The notes below the pieces were generated by a model that ran no database searches, was not told where the DNA came from, and worked only from the letters and a program-made list of their open reading frames with translations. The position numbers and the translations under genes were made by a program. Source: Acidobacteriota bacterium (GTDB lineage: Bacteria > Acidobacteriota > Terriglobia > Bryobacterales > Bryobacteraceae). From it: a DNA stretch of 64,000 bases. The stretch is from NCBI GenBank assembly GCA_025353165.1, contig JANXRE010000175.1, positions 1 through 64,000 on the forward strand, given 5' to 3'. This document shows positions 35,243-63,663 of this stretch, one piece after another (the first letter of the stretch is position 1; the number at the start of each line of letters is the position of its first letter).

Positions 35243-35767
35243 ATGTCCGAATCATCTCGCGTTGCCACTCTTAACGGAAATCCTCTCGCTCTTCTCGGCC
35301 CCGAGCTGCATCCCGGCGATCCCGCCCCGGATTTCGAGGCTTACGATAACAAACTCCAGCCGGTGCACCTGAAGGAAACCGGATCGAAAGTGCGCATCTT
35401 CAGCGTGCTTCCGTCGTTGGACACGCCCGTATGCGATGCGCAGACGAAGCGGTTCAACGAGGAAATTGCCAAGCTGCCGGACATCGACGTTTACACCGTG
35501 AGCGTGGACCTCCCGTTCGCCATGTCGCGCTGGTGCACGGCGATGGGCGTGGATCGCGTGAAGATGCTTTCCGACTACCGGAAGGGCTCGTTCGGCGAGG
35601 CTTACGGCACTCTGATCCGGGACCTGCGGCTGGAGAGCCGCGCCATTTTCGTCGTCGGCCCCGACAATACGATCAAGTATGTGGAGTACGTGAAAGAAGT
35701 CGCCAGCCATCCGGATTACGACGCTGCGATCGCGGCAGCGCGTTCGGCCGCGGGTGATGGGGGATAG
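35243..35767 (+). CDS. tpx: Thiol peroxidase
   Basis: A 174-residue atypical 2-Cys peroxiredoxin of the Tpx type. The peroxidatic Cys is in PSLDTPVCDAQTKRF and the resolving Cys in SRWCTAMG, the Tpx-specific position on helix 3. GDPAPDFEAYDNKLQPVHL and SFGEAYGTLI complete the fold. It reduces lipid and alkyl hydroperoxides with thioredoxin. GAGGG before the ATG serves as ribosome binding site. It immediately follows the thioredoxin-domain protein gene. Confidence 0.94.
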   Translation: MSESSRVATLNGNPLALLGPELHPGDPAPDFEAYDNKLQPVHLKETGSKVRIFSVLPSLDTPVCDAQTKRFNEEIAKLPDIDVYTVSVDLPFAMSRWCTAMGVDRVKMLSDYRKGSFGEAYGTLIRDLRLESRAIFVVGPDNTIKYVEYVKEVASHPDYDAAIAAARSAAGDGG

Positions 35768-38139: not shown

Positions 38140-38278
38140 CGATTGCAGGAACTACCCCGGCAGCTTATCGGTATTGATTACAGGTCGTCTTCAATTCAAG
38201 TTTGGCATCATCCTTCTTTGGGCCTTCACGCTGGTCAAGGTCAGCCGGGGCGAGAACTATCGCCTACCCGCGAGTTGA
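38140..38278 (+). pseudogene. Internally deleted copy of the DUF4870-type gene at 40127
   Basis: The segment 38140-38188 resembles the upstream region of the 40127 gene (about 40062-40110, sharing TTATCG..ATTGATTAC). It is joined directly to a match of that gene's 3' part (about 40469-40546), reading FKFGIILLWAFTLVKVSRG then ENYRLP, where the intact gene has FKLGIMILWIFMLVKVSQG. About 360 nt including the start codon and first helices are missing, and a stop follows. It is a paralogue decayed by one internal deletion. Confidence 0.7.
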
Positions 38279-40126: not shown

Positions 40127-40591
40127 ATGGCCTTCTGTACACAATGCGGATCGGCGGTGGTGGACGCGGACCGATTCTGCGGAAAATGCGGCGTGCCACA
40201 GCCGGCGGTAGCTGCGGCCTCTTCAGGCGGACCGGAGTTTCTGTCTGGCGTGAACGCGCGCACGGCTTCCCTGCTCTGCTATATCCCCATGATCGGTTGG
40301 ATCGCCGCGATCGTGGTGCTGGCGGCCACGAGGTTCCGGCACGACCACAATACTCGGTTTAACGCGTTCCAGGGGCTTTATCTCTTCGTCGCCTGGCTCA
40401 TCGTCGACTGGGTTGTCAGTCCGATTTTCATGCTTCCGGGCATGCCTTTCCACGACGTGTTCGGCAGCGTCTTCAAGTTGGGCATCATGATCCTGTGGAT
40501 CTTCATGTTGGTCAAGGTCAGCCAGGGCGACAACTATCGCCTGCCCATCGTCGGCGAACTGGCCGAGCGATCCGTCAGCGAACAAGTCTGA
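40127..40591 (+). CDS. Zinc-ribbon plus DUF4870-like membrane protein
   Basis: A 154-residue protein. A zinc ribbon starts at residue 3 (FCTQCGSAVVDADRFCGKCG). After a linker of about 20 residues comes a DUF4870/Tic20-like membrane region: NARTASLLCYIPMIGWIAAIVVLA, FNAFQGLYLFVAWLIVDWVV, VFKLGIMILWIFMLVKVSQG. DUF4870 proteins are small polytopic proteins of unknown function. The Cys ribbon probably binds Zn in the cytoplasm. A deleted paralogue lies 2 kb away at 38140-38278. Confidence 0.83.
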   Translation: MAFCTQCGSAVVDADRFCGKCGVPQPAVAAASSGGPEFLSGVNARTASLLCYIPMIGWIAAIVVLAATRFRHDHNTRFNAFQGLYLFVAWLIVDWVVSPIFMLPGMPFHDVFGSVFKLGIMILWIFMLVKVSQGDNYRLPIVGELAERSVSEQV

Positions 40592-43857: not shown

Positions 43858-43995
43858 ATTCTGTGTCCAACGCAGAGGACCGACGGTCACGACCGGGCGG
43901 GTATATTGTCAAGGCGTATGGCGAGGAGAGCGTCAGTGCGTTCGTTCCGCCGCCGCTGCCGCCCGGGACGCCTTACGATGAGAGTAAGGATCGAT

Positions 43996-48989: not shown

Positions 48990-51923
48990 ATGACAGCAGA
49001 CCAAGTCGTCATGCCCAGTCTGCTGGATTCTGTCGCGTTTCGCGATCCTGGCCGCGCGCGAAGATACCTCGAACACGTCGGCCCGGAACTCCGGGCTCTG
49101 CTGGAAGGTCACGTCGAGCGGATGCTTCAGTTGTCCCCGGATCCGGACGGAGCGTTCGCGTATTTCGCTTCGTTTGCCGAGCGCCACCCTTCCGTGTTCC
49201 AGCGCCTGGCCGCCTCAACCGCCGGACTGAAATACCTGACCGCGACGTTCTCCTACAGCCGTTTTCTTTCGGAAGAGGTCCTGCAAAGCCCGGGCTGGAT
49301 CGAGGAACTGGCGCAGGCCTCCGACATGTTCCGCGTGCGGTTGCCGCATGAATTAGAGCAGTCGCTGGAAGACTTTCTGGTGGAGCGTTCCAGTTCTCCG
49401 CTGGCCCGCGCGCTGGCGCTTTTCCGGCGCAAGCAGTTGCTCCGGATTGTTCTTCGCGACGTGCTGGAATTCGCAACCCTGCCAGAGGTCACCGAGGAGA
49501 TCTCGAATCTGGCCGGCGCGATCGTGAACACGGCGTACCGGCGGATTCGCGCGGACCTGACCGGCCGTCATGGACGCCCGTGTTCGCCAGGCTCCAATGC
49601 GCCGGTCGAAACCGAGTTCTCCGTGATCGCGCTCGGGAAACTCGGGGGCGGCGAGTTGAACTACAGCTCCGATATTGACCTGATGTTCGTTTACTCGGAC
49701 AACGGGACAACCGAAGGTCCGGCCCAGGTCTCGAACAAGGAATTCTACAAGAAGCTCGCGAATCAGCTAACGGACCTGCTCTCGACCTATACACCCGAAG
49801 GCATTTGTTACCGCGTCGACCTGCGGCTTCGGCCGGAGGGGCGATACGGCGAGGTCTGCATCTCGCTTAATGGCGCCAAGCAGTATTACAGCTCCCGTGC
49901 GCGCGATTGGGAACTGCAGATGCTCATCAAAGGGCGCGTCGTCGCCGGCGAACCCGGGCCGGGACGCGAACTTCTCGACTTTGTGGAGCCGCGGATCTAT
50001 TCGACCTCCACCGACTTCTCCTCCATCGAAGTGGTTTCCGAAGCGCGCGAACGCATTTCCGAAAAGCAGGCGGCCCGGCGGGGCGGCCAGGGCCCTTCGG
50101 GCTTCGATATCAAACTCGCGCGCGGCGGCATTCGCGATATCGAATTCCTGGTGCAATGCCTTCAGCGGCTGCATGGCGGGCGCGACCAGTGGGTGCGGCA
50201 CGGCGGCACTATGCTCGCGCTGTCGAGGCTGCACGATAAGCAACTGCTGTCGGAAAACGAGTATGGCCGTCTGCTGGACGCATACGAGTTTCTGCGGGGA
50301 CTGGAGCACCGGCTTCAATTCCTGGACGATCGCCAGACACACTCTCTTCCCTCGGACCCGCTGGAAATGGATCTGCTCGCCCGCCGCTTGCACGCCGGCA
50401 AGCGGGGACCGTATGCATCGGCGGAGGTCTTGCGAGCCCGGCTGAACGAGCTGCTCGAGGAGGTAGCGGAGATTTACGAGCGCGTAATCCACGCGCAGAA
50501 ACCCATGTACTATACCGCTGCCATCCCCGCTGCGGACGAAGAGGAGGCGGTAGAGCCCGATCCGATCCGCCAGCCCGCGCCAAGCAATCTGATCCGCTTT
50601 CTGGATCGGAAAGCCCCCGGCCTTGCGGCGGTCATGTCCCGGCAGAATTTCGGGCGCTCCACCAGAAGCCTGGAACATTTCCTGGAACGAGTGTTCTCGA
50701 ACGCCGAGTGGATGACACTGCTGGACTCCGATCCGCTGGTGTCCGGCTATCTGCTAGATCTGTTCGATCACAGTTCCTATTTCGCGGAACAGTTCATCCG
50801 CTCCCCCGAATTGCTGGAGGAATTGCGGGAGGTGGCGCGCGCGCCTGAAGCCAGGCGCGACTACAGCGCGCTCGCGGCCGGCTTGCAGGAACCGCAGGAC
50901 CTGCGGCGGTTTTTCCGGCGCGAAATGGCGCGGCTGCAATGCGCGAGCGTCTGCCTGCGCGTTCCGATCTTCGACACCCTGGCCGCAACATCGGATCTAG
51001 CCGACTCGGTCATCGGCGCGGGTTATCGAATCGCGCTGGCGCAGGTGTTGGCGACGAAACCTCCGCGCGACCCCGGATACCAGGTGCGCGATCAGCTGAT
51101 GGTCATTTCGCTCGGCCGGCTGGGCCAGCGCGAGTTCGACCTGGCCTCCGACGCGGATCTTCTGTTTGTGATTCCCGACGCGGACAGTTGCGAGCAGATC
51201 TTTTGGACCCGGGTCTCCGAGCGCGCTATCGACCTGATTACTGCCTACACGGGCGATGGCGTGATGTTCGCCGTTGACACACGGCTCAGACCGAACGGAC
51301 GCGAGGGAGCGTTGGTCCAGACCGTGACCGCGTTCCACGATTACTTTGAAAAAAGCGCCGCGGCCTGGGAAGGGATCGCGTACATGAAGGCGCGCGCGGT
51401 GGCGGGTAATCCCGAGGCGGCGCGCGTGTTCCTGAACCAGCTACAGGACGTGGATTGGCGGCGCTGGGGGCAGAGCGGCCGCTCCCGCCGCGACTTGCGG
51501 GCCATGCGGGCGAGGCTGGAGAAGGAACAGGGCGCGTCGAATCCATTGAAGGCGGGACGTGGCGGCTACTACGATATCGACTTCGCATTAATGTATCTGC
51601 GCCTCAAGAGCGCCGGCGTATTTTACCCGGTGCTGAACACCCCCGCGCGCATCGACATCATCGAGCGGATGGGGCACCTGGACCGCGACGATGCGGCCTT
51701 CCTCAGCGACGCGGCGGTATTCTATCGTTCGCTGGATCATGCTCTCCGCATATTCTCGGGCCACGCGGAAGGCAGCCTGCCGAACTCGGAGGCCAAGCTG
51801 GAAGCGCTGACGGAACTCGCCGGCCGCTGGACGCCGGACCATCTGCACGGCCGGCCGCTCAAGACGGAATTGAGCCAGATCCAGGCGCGTACGCGCGAGA
51901 TCTTCGAACGCCTGTTCGCCTGA
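48990..51923 (+). CDS. glnE: Bifunctional glutamine synthetase adenylyltransferase/adenylyl-removing enzyme
   Basis: A 977-residue GlnE, close to the usual 950. The N-terminal nucleotidyltransferase (de-adenylylating half) has LGKLGGGELNYSSDIDLMFVYS; the C-terminal half (adenylylating) has LGRLGQREFDLASDADLLFV. Each is followed by a helical GlnD-UR-like domain (RDIEFLVQCLQRLHGGRD, YYDIDFALMYLRLKSAG). It controls glutamine synthetase activity by AMP addition or removal according to PII signals. ATG 48990. A TolB-like gene follows after 22 nt. Confidence 0.95.
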   Translation: MTADQVVMPSLLDSVAFRDPGRARRYLEHVGPELRALLEGHVERMLQLSPDPDGAFAYFASFAERHPSVFQRLAASTAGLKYLTATFSYSRFLSEEVLQSPGWIEELAQASDMFRVRLPHELEQSLEDFLVERSSSPLARALALFRRKQLLRIVLRDVLEFATLPEVTEEISNLAGAIVNTAYRRIRADLTGRHGRPCSPGSNAPVETEFSVIALGKLGGGELNYSSDIDLMFVYSDNGTTEGPAQVSNKEFYKKLANQLTDLLSTYTPEGICYRVDLRLRPEGRYGEVCISLNGAKQYYSSRARDWELQMLIKGRVVAGEPGPGRELLDFVEPRIYSTSTDFSSIEVVSEARERISEKQAARRGGQGPSGFDIKLARGGIRDIEFLVQCLQRLHGGRDQWVRHGGTMLALSRLHDKQLLSENEYGRLLDAYEFLRGLEHRLQFLDDRQTHSLPSDPLEMDLLARRLHAGKRGPYASAEVLRARLNELLEEVAEIYERVIHAQKPMYYTAAIPAADEEEAVEPDPIRQPAPSNLIRFLDRKAPGLAAVMSRQNFGRSTRSLEHFLERVFSNAEWMTLLDSDPLVSGYLLDLFDHSSYFAEQFIRSPELLEELREVARAPEARRDYSALAAGLQEPQDLRRFFRREMARLQCASVCLRVPIFDTLAATSDLADSVIGAGYRIALAQVLATKPPRDPGYQVRDQLMVISLGRLGQREFDLASDADLLFVIPDADSCEQIFWTRVSERAIDLITAYTGDGVMFAVDTRLRPNGREGALVQTVTAFHDYFEKSAAAWEGIAYMKARAVAGNPEAARVFLNQLQDVDWRRWGQSGRSRRDLRAMRARLEKEQGASNPLKAGRGGYYDIDFALMYLRLKSAGVFYPVLNTPARIDIIERMGHLDRDDAAFLSDAAVFYRSLDHALRIFSGHAEGSLPNSEAKLEALTELAGRWTPDHLHGRPLKTELSQIQARTREIFERLFA

Positions 51924-56174: not shown

Positions 56175-56473
56175 CGGGGCGCCGTCTCTGCATGGCGCAT
56201 TCCCTTAAAAACAGGTTGATGAGATTCTGATATCCGCGAATCGAATGCCAGAGTCGTGCGCTTCTAAATAGAGGGCAGGTCTCCACTACAAGCGCTGGCA
56301 AAAATGTGTTGCTGATGGCCAACAGCTTAACGCCCGGAAGCTTCTCCAGATTGGTCGCCGAATGGCGATAGCCGCACGCGCACGTCCCGAGCCTCGCCGG
56401 TCCAATTATAAAAAGCGACCCGGCGCTGCGCCGCGAGTGGAACTGCGCACAGCGATTGTGGTTGGATAGAACC
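56175..56473. other. Intergenic region, no gene recognised
   Basis: 299 nt, more AT-rich than its neighbours. A minus-strand frame (to 56688) reads YRHSATNLEKLPGVKLLAIS, which looks protein-like, but I recognise no family and it overlaps the oxidoreductase gene. It may be another relic. Confidence 0.35.
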
Positions 56474-57577
56474 GTGAACCGAAGAATCTTCCTATTGGGT
56501 TCGGCGGCGGTGGCCGCGCGGGGGCAGACGCCCGAACAACTCATTCGCACAGCCCTTATCGGCGTCGGCAACCGCGGCTCGTACCTGCTGGAAGGCGTGC
56601 TCGCACAGCCCGCCGCCAAACTCGTGGCGCTATGCGACATCAAGCCGGATCGCTTGGACAAAGCGGCCACCGCCGCTGCCAGGGACAACCCCGCTACCTA
56701 TGCGGATTGGCGAAGCGTCATCGACCGAAAAGATGTGGATGCGGTTTTTATCGCTTCCCCGCCGGACCTGCATTCCGGAATGGCGGTGGCGGCGCTCCGC
56801 GCGGGCAAACACGTGTACTGCGAGAAGCCGATCGGAATCACTCCCGCACAAGTGCGCGCCATTGTCGAGGCCGCGCGGGCGTCCAACAAGGTGTTCGTCC
56901 CGGGCCAGCAACTGCGTTCGATCCAGCAATACATGGAAGCGGTCCACAAAATCCGGGCAGGCATTATAGGGGATGTGATCATGGTCAAGGCGCAGCGGCA
57001 CGCCGCGGCCGACCTTCCACACGACGGAAGTTCCGCCGACTGGTACTTCGATGTGACCCGGTCGGGCGGATACCTCATCGAGCAGTCGGTGCATAATCTG
57101 GACCTCTGCAATTGGGTGATCGGAGCGCACCCGGCGCGCGCGTGCGGATTCGGCGGGATCCTGCTCTACAAGAACGATCCGCCTGGCCGGACCATCTTCG
57201 ACTGCGGGACGCTCAGTTACGAGTATCCCGGCGGGGTGAAGATGTCATTCACGCAGAATGTATTTCACCCGCGCGGGATGCCGAACGGCAATCAAGGCCT
57301 CTACATCTACGGCACGAAGGGCGCGATCGATTTCATGGGCACGCCTACGATGTACGCGCTTTCAGACGAAAGCAAGCCGGTAGTGATCGCCGATAAGCCG
57401 GAGCGGGAGGATCCCCACGCGCATATTGCGGCTTTCTACAATTCCGTTGTGAACGGCGCGAAACCGCCGGCGGACATTACGATCGGCGCGGCCGCGGCAT
57501 TGACCGCTATCCTCGGTCACCAGGCGATGACCCGCCAGCAAGTTGTCGATTGGAATGGACTGGGCGTGGAGTTGTAG
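56474..57577 (+). CDS. Tat-exported Gfo/Idh/MocA family oxidoreductase
   Basis: About 367 residues from GTG 56474. The leader NRRIFLLGSAAVAARGQ is Tat-like. The Rossmann motif ALIGVGNRGSYLLEG, then ALCDIKPDRLDKA and the Gfo/Idh Lys motif HVYCEKPIG, lead to the C-terminal sheet domain (GGYLIEQSVHNLDLCNWVIG, carrying the catalytic His). It reduces or oxidises a sugar or cyclitol using NAD(P). TTG 56456 would add six residues ahead of the Tat motif. Its 3' end is followed by the inverted cupin copy. Confidence 0.86.
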   Translation: MNRRIFLLGSAAVAARGQTPEQLIRTALIGVGNRGSYLLEGVLAQPAAKLVALCDIKPDRLDKAATAAARDNPATYADWRSVIDRKDVDAVFIASPPDLHSGMAVAALRAGKHVYCEKPIGITPAQVRAIVEAARASNKVFVPGQQLRSIQQYMEAVHKIRAGIIGDVIMVKAQRHAAADLPHDGSSADWYFDVTRSGGYLIEQSVHNLDLCNWVIGAHPARACGFGGILLYKNDPPGRTIFDCGTLSYEYPGGVKMSFTQNVFHPRGMPNGNQGLYIYGTKGAIDFMGTPTMYALSDESKPVVIADKPEREDPHAHIAAFYNSVVNGAKPPADITIGAAAALTAILGHQAMTRQQVVDWNGLGVEL

Positions 57578-57604
57578 ATGGTGGGTTCGGGGATGCATAG
57601 TCAC

Positions 57605-57931
57605 CGCCCGCGCAGTAGGCGTCGTTCCCCGACTTCCAATCCTCTCGGTGCGGGGAGAAGATATCGGCGGCGACCACATCGTCCAGAGCCTCGGCGGAAT
57701 GCGGCACGTTCGGAGGAATGCGCAGCACTTCGCCAGGACCGACGATCTGCTCTTTGCCATCCAGGACGAAGCGCAGCCGGCCTTCCTCAGTCATCGAGAT
57801 CTGCTCGTTGTGATGGCTGTGCTCGGGCACGATGTAGCCCTTGCCCATCCAGAGGCGCGCGACGGTAATTTGATCGCCGTGGATGCACTGCCGCGCGAAC
57901 AACGGGTTCAGCCGTTCCTTCTCGACGGACG
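57605..57931 (-). pseudogene. Inverted, truncated copy of the cupin gene at 60975
   Basis: 327 nt matching 60994-61321 in inverse orientation with 7 substitutions and one 1-nt deletion (about 97.6% identity by eye). The copy lacks the first 6-7 codons of the cupin including its ATG. The deletion near 57615 (CTACCTGCG to CTACTGCG) shifts the frame at the last few codons, so the stop is lost and the frame runs on to 57507, inside the oxidoreductase gene. The cupin metal site (HSHHNE) is unchanged. Translation could only begin at an internal TTG (57902). Best read as a recent non-functional duplicate. Confidence 0.85.
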
Positions 57932-57946
57932 CTAAAACGCACCGGC

Positions 57947-58111
57947 ATGCATTGGACCGTGCTTGGTTCCAACGCCATCATCGCGCTTCGTTGCCGCATC
58001 CTCAGCGGAACCTTTGAGGACTTCCGGGAGCGCCGGTCCGTTCGACAAAAGGCCGCCTACAAGCGCTGCGTTAGCACTTTCTTGTCGTGCACCCGTTGGA
58101 CACTACACTAG
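57947..58111 (+). pseudogene. C-terminal relic of a transposase
   Basis: An open frame of 54 codons reads HWTVLGSNAIIALRCRILSG then TFEDFRERRS, the pattern of the C-terminal end of some ISKra4-like transposases (W.V.G.NAI.ALRC..L.G.FEDFW..R). Only the tail is present. It lies 15 nt from the junction of the inverted cupin copy, so a transposition or recombination event there is plausible. Family naming is from memory of the motif. Confidence 0.5.
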
Positions 58112-58221
58112 CGCTTATGGGTTCGTCCCCCGCCCCCCCGCCTTGTCGAATTCCTCATCAATTCGACGCTATTTACCCCCTGGCTTATGGCATCATAAGT
58201 ATTAGGAGAGAAGAGTCCGAA

Positions 58222-60966
58222 ATGGCAATCACCACTAGCAAGCTCGGGGCCGGCAAGCCGAATTCAGGGAAGCCCTCTTCGGTAATCGAGCCCGGCGAAC
58301 ATCCGCTCGATGTCTTTTTCTCGCCCAGAAACATCGCGGTGGTCGGGGCGACGGAATCGGCCGGGAGCGTGGGACGCACAACGCTGTGGAACCTCATCAG
58401 CTCGCCGTTTGGCGGGACGGTGTTTCCGATCAACCCCAAACGGAAGAGTATCCTGGGCATCCGCGCGTACAAGAGCATTCTCGATGTGCCGGAGCCGGTG
58501 GACCTGGCCGTTGTCGTCACGCCCGCGCCGTCCGTCCCCGGAGTGATTCACGAGTGCGGACAGGTAGGAGTGAAGGGCGCCATCGTCATTTCGGCCGGGT
58601 TCAAAGAATTAGGGCCGGAAGGGCTCGCGCTGGAGCAAAAAGTTCTGCAGGAGGCGCGCGCGGGCGGCCTTCGCATCATCGGTCCGAACTGCCTGGGACT
58701 CATGTGCCCCCCGACGGGCGTGAACGCGACGTTCGCCCGCGGGATGGCCAGCGCCGGATCGGTCGGATTCATCAGCCAGAGCGGCGCCCTCTGCACCGCG
58801 GTTCTGGACTGGAGTTTCGAAAGCCGCGTCGGTTTCAGCGCCTTCCTGTCGATCGGCTCGATGGTGGACGTGGATTGGGGCGACCTCATCCAATACCTGG
58901 GCCGCGACCCGCGCACGCGCTCGATTTTGATTTACATGGAGTCGATCGGCGACGCGCGTTCGTTCCTTTCCGCGGCGCGTGAAGTGGCGCTCTCGAAACC
59001 CATCATCGTCATCAAAGCGGGGCGAACGGCGGCGGGCGGGAAGGCGGCGGCCTCCCACACGGGCGCGCTCACCGGATCCGACGATGTCCTCGACGCAGCC
59101 TTCCGGCGCGTCGGCGTCCTGCGGGTGGAACGCATCTCCGACCTGTTCTACATGGCCGAGGTGCTGGGGAAACAGCCGCGCCCCAAGGGCCCGCGCCTTA
59201 CGATCTTGACGAACGCCGGCGGTCCCGCCGTGCTGGCAACGGATGCGTTGATCGTAACTGGCGGCGAGATCGCGGAGATCGGGGAAGAAACGCTGGCCGC
59301 GTTGAATGAAGTCCTGCCGGCGCAGTGGAGCCATGGGAATCCCATCGACATCCTCGGCGACGGTGGCCCCGACCGTTACGCCAAGGCGCTCGAGATCGCC
59401 GCGAAAGACCCGAACAGCGACGGCCTGTTGGTGGTGCTCACGCCCCAGGCGATGACGGACCCCACGCAAACCGCGGAGAAGCTGAAGCCTTACGCACATT
59501 CGCTTAACAAGCCTGTTCTTGCCGCTTGGATGGGCGGTCCCGAAGTAGCGGCCGGCACCGACATTCTGAGCCGCGCGGGCATTCCGACATTCCTCTACCC
59601 GGACACCGCCGCGCGCGCGTTCCTGTACATGTGGCGGTACACGTACAATTTGAACGGCTTGTATGAAACGCCGCACATGCCCGAGGATGAAGCTGGCGGC
59701 GAGGATCGTCTTGCGGTCGCGAACCTGATAAAGGAAGTTCGCGCCAATGGGCGGACGCTGCTTACCGAGTTCGAGTCGAAGAAGGTGCTTTCGCTGTACG
59801 GGATTCCGACCGTCGAAACCCGGATCGCCACGGCCATCGAAGAAGCAGTGAGCCACGCCGAAGAAATCGGCTACCCCATCGTGCTGAAGCTGTTCTCCGA
59901 GACAATCACTCACAAGACCGATGTCGGCGGGGTGAAGCTGAATCTCGCCGGCCCGGATGCGGTTCGGAAGGCGTTTGAAGCGATCCGGGCCGGCGTCGCG
60001 GCGGAACATTTCCAGGGCGTTACGGTCCAGCCGATGGTGAAGCTCGAGGGCTATGAGCTCATCCTCGGCTCGAGCGTCGATCCGCAGTTCGGTCCGGTCC
60101 TGCTGTTCGGACTGGGCGGACAACTCGTCGAGGTGTTCAAGGATCGCGCGCTGGCGCTTCCTCCTCTGAACACGACGCTGGCCCGCCGGATGATGGAGCA
60201 GACCAAGATTTACAAGGCGCTGAAGGGTGTGCGCGGACGGAAATCCGTGGATCTCGCGCAACTTGAGCAGTTGATGGTGAACTTCAGCCAGCTCGTGGTG
60301 CAGCACCGTTGGATCAAGGAAATCGACATCAACCCGATGCTCGCCGGTCCGGATGGGATCCTCGCGCTGGACGCGCGGGTGGTGCTTCACGAGGACATGG
60401 ACGAGAAGTTGTTGCCTCGGCCCGCCATCCGTCCCTACCCGGTGCAGTACACCTGGAAGTGGAATCTCAAAGACGGCACGCCGGTGACGATCCGGCCCAT
60501 CCGCCCCGAGGACGAACCGCTGCTGGTGAAATTCCACGAGACGCTGTCGGACCGCAGCGTTTACCTGCGCTACCTGCACATGTTGAAGCTCAGCCAGCGC
60601 GTAGCGCACGAGCGGCTGACGCGGATTTGCTTCATCGACTATGCGCGGGAGATCGCGCTGGTCATGGAAAAAACCGGCGACGACGGAGAGCGCCACGTGC
60701 TGGCCGTTGGCCGGCTCCAGCGGCTGCCCTCCGAAGGGGAGGCCGAGTTCGCGCTACTGGTCAGCGACGAGTATCAGGGCAAGGGCATCGGGCCGGAGAT
60801 GCTGAACCGGCTGATAGATGTCGGCCGGCGCGAAGGACTGAAGCTGCTGACGGCGGATATCCTGTCCGACAACAGCGCCATGCAGCGGCTGTGCGCGCGC
60901 ATCGGGTTCAAGCTGCATCGGGAGATCGGCGACCCGACGGTGAGGGCGGAGATGGAGTTGCTATAA
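58222..60966 (+). CDS. ADP-forming acyl-CoA synthetase / GNAT acetyltransferase fusion (Pat/YfiQ-like)
   Basis: A 914-residue protein. Residues about 30-480 are the CoA-binding and ligase domains of ADP-forming acetyl-CoA synthetases ([47 protein letters not shown]), with the phospho-His loop [12 protein letters not shown] (His279). About 520-740 is the ATP-grasp part ([34 protein letters not shown]). About 755-914 is GNAT ([46 protein letters not shown]). Such fusions acetylate lysines of central enzymes, and the His suggests synthetase activity may persist. The frame upstream of ATG 58222 is not coding. Confidence 0.88.
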
Positions 60967-60974
60967 TTTTCGCA

Positions 60975-61325
60975 ATGGAACTCTATAACTGGACGTCCGT
61001 CGAGAAGGAACGGCTGAACCCGTTGTTCGCGCGGCAGTGCATCCACGGTGATCAGATTACCGTCGCGCGCCTCTGGATCGGCAAGGGCTACATCGTGCCC
61101 GAGCACAGCCATCACAACGAGCAGATCTCGATGACTGAGGAAGGCCGGCTGCGCTTCGTCCTGGATGGCAAGGAGCAGATCGTCGGTCCTGGCGAAGTGC
61201 TGCGCATTCCTCCGAACGTGCCGCATTCCGCCGAGGCTCTGGACGATGTGATCGCCACCGATATCTTCTCCCCGCACCGCGAGGATTGGAAGTCGGGGAA
61301 CGACGCCTACCTGCGCGGGCGTTAG
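60975..61325 (+). CDS. Small cupin-domain protein
   Basis: A 116-residue single-domain cupin. VARLWIGKGYIVPEHSHHNEQISMTEEGRL holds motif 1 (H-x-H-x-N-E) and GPGEVLRIPPNVPHSAEALDD motif 2 (P-x-x-x-P-H). A metal site is expected, and it may be a binding protein or an isomerase/dioxygenase. ATG 60975 follows the fusion gene by 8 nt, so it is co-transcribed with the acyl-CoA synthetase/GNAT gene. An inverted partial copy lies at 57605-57931 on the other side of that gene. Confidence 0.87.
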   Translation: MELYNWTSVEKERLNPLFARQCIHGDQITVARLWIGKGYIVPEHSHHNEQISMTEEGRLRFVLDGKEQIVGPGEVLRIPPNVPHSAEALDDVIATDIFSPHREDWKSGNDAYLRGR

Positions 61326-63562: not shown

Positions 63563-63580
63563 AGATCGCCCCTTGCCATT

Positions 63581-63630
63581 TCAACGTGGCGCACGCACTG
63601 GTGCGTGCCGCGTCGCCACTCCTGGCGACG
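63581..63630. repeat. REP-like dispersed palindromic element, copy 2
   Basis: The first 39 nt resemble 16803-16839 and contain GCACGCAC-TG-GTGCGTGC. The following CGTCGCCA-CTCC-TGGCGACG (63611-63630) is a perfect 8-bp hairpin with a 4-nt loop. Two stems side by side are typical of bacterial REP-type elements. No transposase is nearby. Confidence 0.55.
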
Positions 63631-63663
63631 CCGTGCGGAATTCATCAAAGTGAATTGAGACAC

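Follow-up and report, generated by a model that had tools for sequence, protein, structure and literature searches.

An inverted partial copy of a cupin gene beside an ISKra4-family remnant, probably a neutral duplication scar upstream of an acyl-CoA ligase/GNAT gene

The inverted repeat that encloses an acyl-CoA ligase gene in this genome is probably a neutral scar, in which a 327-nt piece of the cupin gene on one side of the ligase gene was copied, inverted, about 3 kb upstream, beside a truncated and probably older insertion sequence (IS) of the ISKra4 family. There are two copies of the cupin sequence and an IS remnant; the downstream frame is intact and the upstream copy is broken. The remnant touches the copy, and it is new with respect to the first-pass annotation of this DNA. 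The window, the whole stretch analysed, comprises the first 64,000 bases of the 141,723-base contig C189 of a genome of 5.77 Mb (200 contigs, 98.4% complete and 2.7% contaminated). The features of the locus, in the order in which they lie, are:

56456-57577, plus strand: gene for a Gfo/Idh/MocA-type oxidoreductase, upstream of the copy (Pfam GFO_IDH_MocA 5.7e-24)
57605-57931, minus strand: partial cupin gene copy that runs from codon 7 almost to the stop (alignment; tblastn)
57605-57931, minus strand: arm 1 of the repeat (alignment to 60994-61321)
57932-58094, plus strand: right-end remnant of an ISKra4-family IS (80% nucleotide match to C53:1949-2057)
58095-58221, plus strand: leader of the ligase gene, 127 nt, with AGGAG before the start codon (direct reading of the sequence)
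58222-60966, plus strand: gene for an ADP-forming acyl-CoA ligase fused to a GNAT domain (Pfam domains; PDB matches)
60975-61325, plus strand: intact cupin gene, 116 aa, single-domain (Pfam Cupin_2 8e-13)
60994-61321, plus strand: arm 2 of the repeat, within the intact cupin gene

The ligase/GNAT protein is similar to protein acetyltransferases. Its residues 28-904 match PDB 9it0 (E 2e-150) and residues 29-904 match 9isq (E 3e-149), each entitled 'Protein acetyltransferase', and by its resemblance to these solved proteins it is Pat/PatZ-like. The cupin has five relatives in named records, all in metagenome genomes, with the labels Bryobacterales (2), Bryobacteraceae, Terriglobia and Acidobacteria; the host is accordingly a probable acidobacterium near Bryobacteraceae, probably from soil.

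It had been noted that 57605-57931 and 60994-61321 are inverse copies at about 97.6% identity, with 7 substitutions and one 1-nt deletion, and that they flank a single gene of 2.7 kb. Alignment bears this out. The aligned arms occupy 328 columns (identity 97.56%, E 6e-157), the deletion is in the upstream copy, the longest identical block is 92 nt, and the one gene between the arms is the 914-codon ligase/GNAT gene. Five of the substitutions fall at third codon positions and two at first positions; three alter the residue. The arms are the sole repeat pair of more than 130 nt in the whole contig, among pairs with E 1e-8 or better. When 22 stretches of the same genome were sampled (439,055 bases, roughly 8% of its length), inverted pairs of at least 40 nt numbered 16, and among these the cupin pair alone exceeds 105 nt with an identity of at least 85%. 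In 14 stretches from relatives (217,032 bases) no inverted pair of at least 40 nt was found.

Other repeats were seen in passing. Within the window, 38195-38269 and 40472-40546 form a direct repeat of 75 nt with 84% identity, perhaps from paralogous genes. A 48-nt repeat at 63584-63631, a REP-like dispersed element, is predicted to fold into two adjacent hairpins (z -2.5 for 63575-63640) and has at least 45 matches in the genome (40 of 241 candidates scored). Elsewhere in the genome, nine inverted-repeat pairs of 46-419 nt and 64-91% identity are clustered in 17 kb (L085, G000:C19:1-17000).

The upstream copy lacks the first 6 codons of the gene (60975-60993) and its last 4 bases (61322-61325), and it is frameshifted at codon 112; over cupin residues 7-115 it retains 94% amino acid identity (tblastn). 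By these marks it reads as a non-functional fragment. The downstream gene is the probable source, and the upstream copy probably derived, because a cupin gene sits 3′ of the ligase gene, in the same direction, in other genomes. With start and stop missing from the copy, and with that gene order elsewhere, the earlier proposal that the upstream copy is the younger and broken one is probably correct. Polarisation of the substitutions against 37 distinct relatives weakly favours the intact gene as the older copy. At codons 27, 66, 95 and 102 the rarer variant is in the upstream copy (the polarity at codon 27 coming from 2 relatives with the same residue, and that at codon 66 from 1 such relative). 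At codons 25 and 93 the upstream copy has the commoner variant and the intact gene the rarer, and codon 35 is undecided; at codon 93 the two nearest relatives side with the intact gene.

Gene order was followed by searching for ligase and cupin in the same 101 genomes, the present one included, a ligase match being counted at E 1e-200 or better. The ligase is matched in 75 of the 101 and the cupin in 94, and many family genomes have more than one cupin match. Of the 74 other genomes with a ligase, 6 (G043, G099, G056, G006, G031 and G024) have a cupin gene 61 to 3,038 nt 3′ of the ligase gene, on the same strand. The cupins of these six, with identities of 46-56%, are likely to be orthologous. 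Most of the remaining genomes are uninformative on gene order, since their ligase and cupin are on different contigs. No cupin within 15 kb upstream of the ligase is among the matches listed for the 74 other ligase genomes; G013 has an upstream cupin at a distance of 19.4 kb, on the other strand. One genome counts against an ancestral downstream cupin. In G001, the sole other searched genome of the genus, the ligase is at C22:551390-554065 and the nearest listed cupin at C22:720614-720955, about 167 kb away among the matches listed. In the comparison with relatives proposed in the first-pass annotation, a ligase flanked on both sides by cupins no more than 15 kb away occurs in 0 of the 100 other family genomes among the matches listed, many of these genomes being fragmented.

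The sequence directly beside the copy has its own history. A search of the genome with 57932-58221 finds one other place, C53:1949-2057, with 80% identity across 109 nt. Lengthening the query leaves the start of the match at 57932, the first base past the copy, and the boundary of the copy (57931/57932) is the start of the IS match. The transposase of C53 has 474 residues and scores 300 bits against the NCBIfam model transpos_ISKra4 (NF033572, cut-off 205); that score belongs to the C53 gene, and the class of the remnant rests on its nucleotide match to that gene. The remnant holds the last transposase codons together with the terminal inverted repeat of the right side (about 58075-58094). On the minus strand this end, before 58094, starts GGGTGCACGAC and resembles the ends of the C53 element and of related elements. 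From these resemblances, 57932-58094 is identified as the right end of an ISKra4-family element, now decayed and with the same orientation as the ligase gene. Its decay is deduced from the replacement of conserved residues (Trp464, present in 15 of 15 homologues, by Arg, and Arg459, present in 14 of 15, by Thr) and from the position of its differences from C53, 11 of 22 of which are at first and second codon positions.

It is a remnant and not a complete element. A search of 57578-57604 for a left terminal repeat found none (815 of 2000 shuffles scored equally well), and the 9 bases past 58094 are not repeated in that left flank as a 9-bp target duplication; elsewhere in the window exact copies of these bases occur only at 35416 and, reversed, at 43863. 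Repeats of 9 bp flank 4 of the 10 loci listed, as judged by eye (L088 = C53, L093, L094 and L095). A site at 50227 agrees with the terminal repeat at 16 of 20 positions. It was taken as chance because it is inside a 977-codon open frame and the 9 bases that precede it differ from those past 58094, although a site of its type occurs in only 2 of 200 shuffles (one strand). No match to 57578-58221 was found in a plasmid collection searched in distant mode. The C53 element itself is complete (L087, G000:C53:259-2111). It spans 1,853 bases, its terminal repeats lie at 259 and 2111 with a 9-bp target duplication outside them, and a DUF6788 gene precedes its transposase gene; past it is an open frame (2518-2865) with a weak ParE_toxin match (27.4 bits, cut-off 23).

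The most economical course of events starts with an ISKra4-family element that would have inserted in front of the ligase gene and then undergone truncation and decay. Later, in the course of repair or replication, a nascent DNA end close to the truncated IS may have copied 327 nt of the cupin gene from the other strand, about 3 kb off. Rejoining would have left the inverted copy within the IS remnant or at its deletion end. The route would be template switching or break repair, and the copy would have drifted neutrally since. The order of IS, IS decay and then cupin copy is probable from the divergences, since the remnant is 80% identical to the C53 IS while the cupin copies are 97.6% identical to one another. 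The C53 element, at 80% identity, is the only related IS that turned up in the genome, and the remnant may descend from another. For E. coli, inverted template switches have been documented in lac amplification (PMC3161906). A switch inside a single replication fork is doubtful as the form of the event here, because the distance of about 3 kb is greater than the 1.5 kb given for an E. coli fork in that account (PMC3161906). Among the literature matches listed, no title is that of a bacterial case of templated insertion, and no claim of absence is made. Duplications in Solibacter are the subject of another paper (PMC3174227).

An assembly error could mimic such a scar if a false join had put the inverted copy beside an IS end, where contigs tend to break. 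The genome is indeed in 200 contigs, and several relatives have short transposase C-terminal fragments at contig starts (e.g. G037 and G061), which suggests that such repeats break assemblies. However, 7 substitutions and an indel separate the copy from its source, no identical block is longer than 92 nt, the copy is inside a 141.7-kb contig with both junctions assembled, and the IS remnant is decayed and not an active repeat, the genome search having yielded one related copy of it. An artefact is accordingly an unlikely account of the arrangement.

Homologous recombination between the arms might be thought to flip the ligase gene and alter its expression. The arms are long, 97.6% identical and include the 92-nt identical block, and arms of the length and identity of these are enough in principle for RecA; inversion between the 327-nt arms may possibly occur at some rate. 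It was proposed earlier that such recombination would flip the gene relative to its promoter region. The position of the leader speaks against that proposal. The whole of 58095-58221 is between the arms and inverts with the gene, and after a crossover simulated in the 92-nt block, ligase and leader stay joined. Inversion would probably not work as an on/off switch, because ligase and leader would move together. In the simulated isomer it is the cupin that changes, becoming a hybrid with a frameshifted tail, of 147 aa as against 116. A promoter upstream of 57605, for instance in an oxidoreductase operon, is possible, and inversion would then uncouple the ligase from it. Against a switch, the contig is assembled through both arms in one orientation, and a cupin on both sides of the ligase, as given above, is not among the matches listed for the other genomes. 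On the position of the leader and the simulated isomer, an invertible switch was judged highly unlikely.

A promoter is likely to be within 58095-58221. No sigma-70-like consensus site was found in 57400-58400, and the best match in a loose promoter scan of 58095-58222 is 8 of 12. Near the start codon, the leader stretch AGTATTAG-AGA resembles the leader of G043; the leaders of other relatives align poorly. The RNA fold of 57932-58221 is no better than that of shuffles (z 0.14), and no known RNA family was found in the 64-kb window at gathering thresholds.

The upstream copy, read on the plus strand, is antisense to the cupin gene, and read-through from the oxidoreductase gene could yield antisense RNA against the cupin message, or else a long hairpin, with cupin expression lowered. 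No terminator-like site was found in 57400-58400, which would permit such read-through. However, no such arrangement was seen in the 100 other genomes searched (many fragmented) and the copy has an indel; antisense control of this kind is very improbable.

To our knowledge, the capture of gene fragments by Mutator-like elements is known from eukaryotes only, and were it shown for a Mutator-like IS the mechanism would be extended to bacteria. Fragments of genes are carried by the Pack-MULEs of plants, which have a preference for the 5′ ends of genes, as described in a treatment of these elements (PMC3942029). A bacterial counterpart here would be a defective ISKra4 element, lying before a gene, that captured a host gene fragment beside its right end and whose left end was lost afterwards. 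This reading is very improbable; of terminal repeats on both sides and a target duplication only the right repeat was found. By title, no bacterial Pack-MULE case is among the literature matches listed, and here too absence is not claimed.

The neutral scar can be set beside three known systems. As in the promoter inversion switches of phase variation, inverted repeats surround a segment. The difference is that here the leader is within the segment together with its own gene, and the repeats consist of a fragment of a gene and the gene from which it likely came. Whether a leader is inside or outside the repeats goes far towards settling claims of a switch, and an inverted repeat that encloses a gene, however striking, can be no more than an ordinary scar of duplication.

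ISKra4 is grouped with the bacterial Mutator-like elements (p-MULT 4), and several members of its group are described as inserting upstream of promoters (PMC3942029), which would fit the place of the remnant. With ISKra4-family IS elements the remnant shares the transposase C-terminus, the terminal inverted repeat and a position before a gene. Unlike an intact member, it has changed conserved residues, and its left end, most of its transposase gene and a target duplication were not found.

The closest parallel to the copying itself is in E. coli, where the embedded inverted duplications described are of 5.2-42.6 kb, inside lac amplicons, and have microhomology (PMC3161906). Unlike those cases, the cupin copy is of 327 nt and broken, and its junctions are not polarisable from one genome. 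Like the template-switch duplications of E. coli, it is an inverted copy of nearby sequence with novel junctions.
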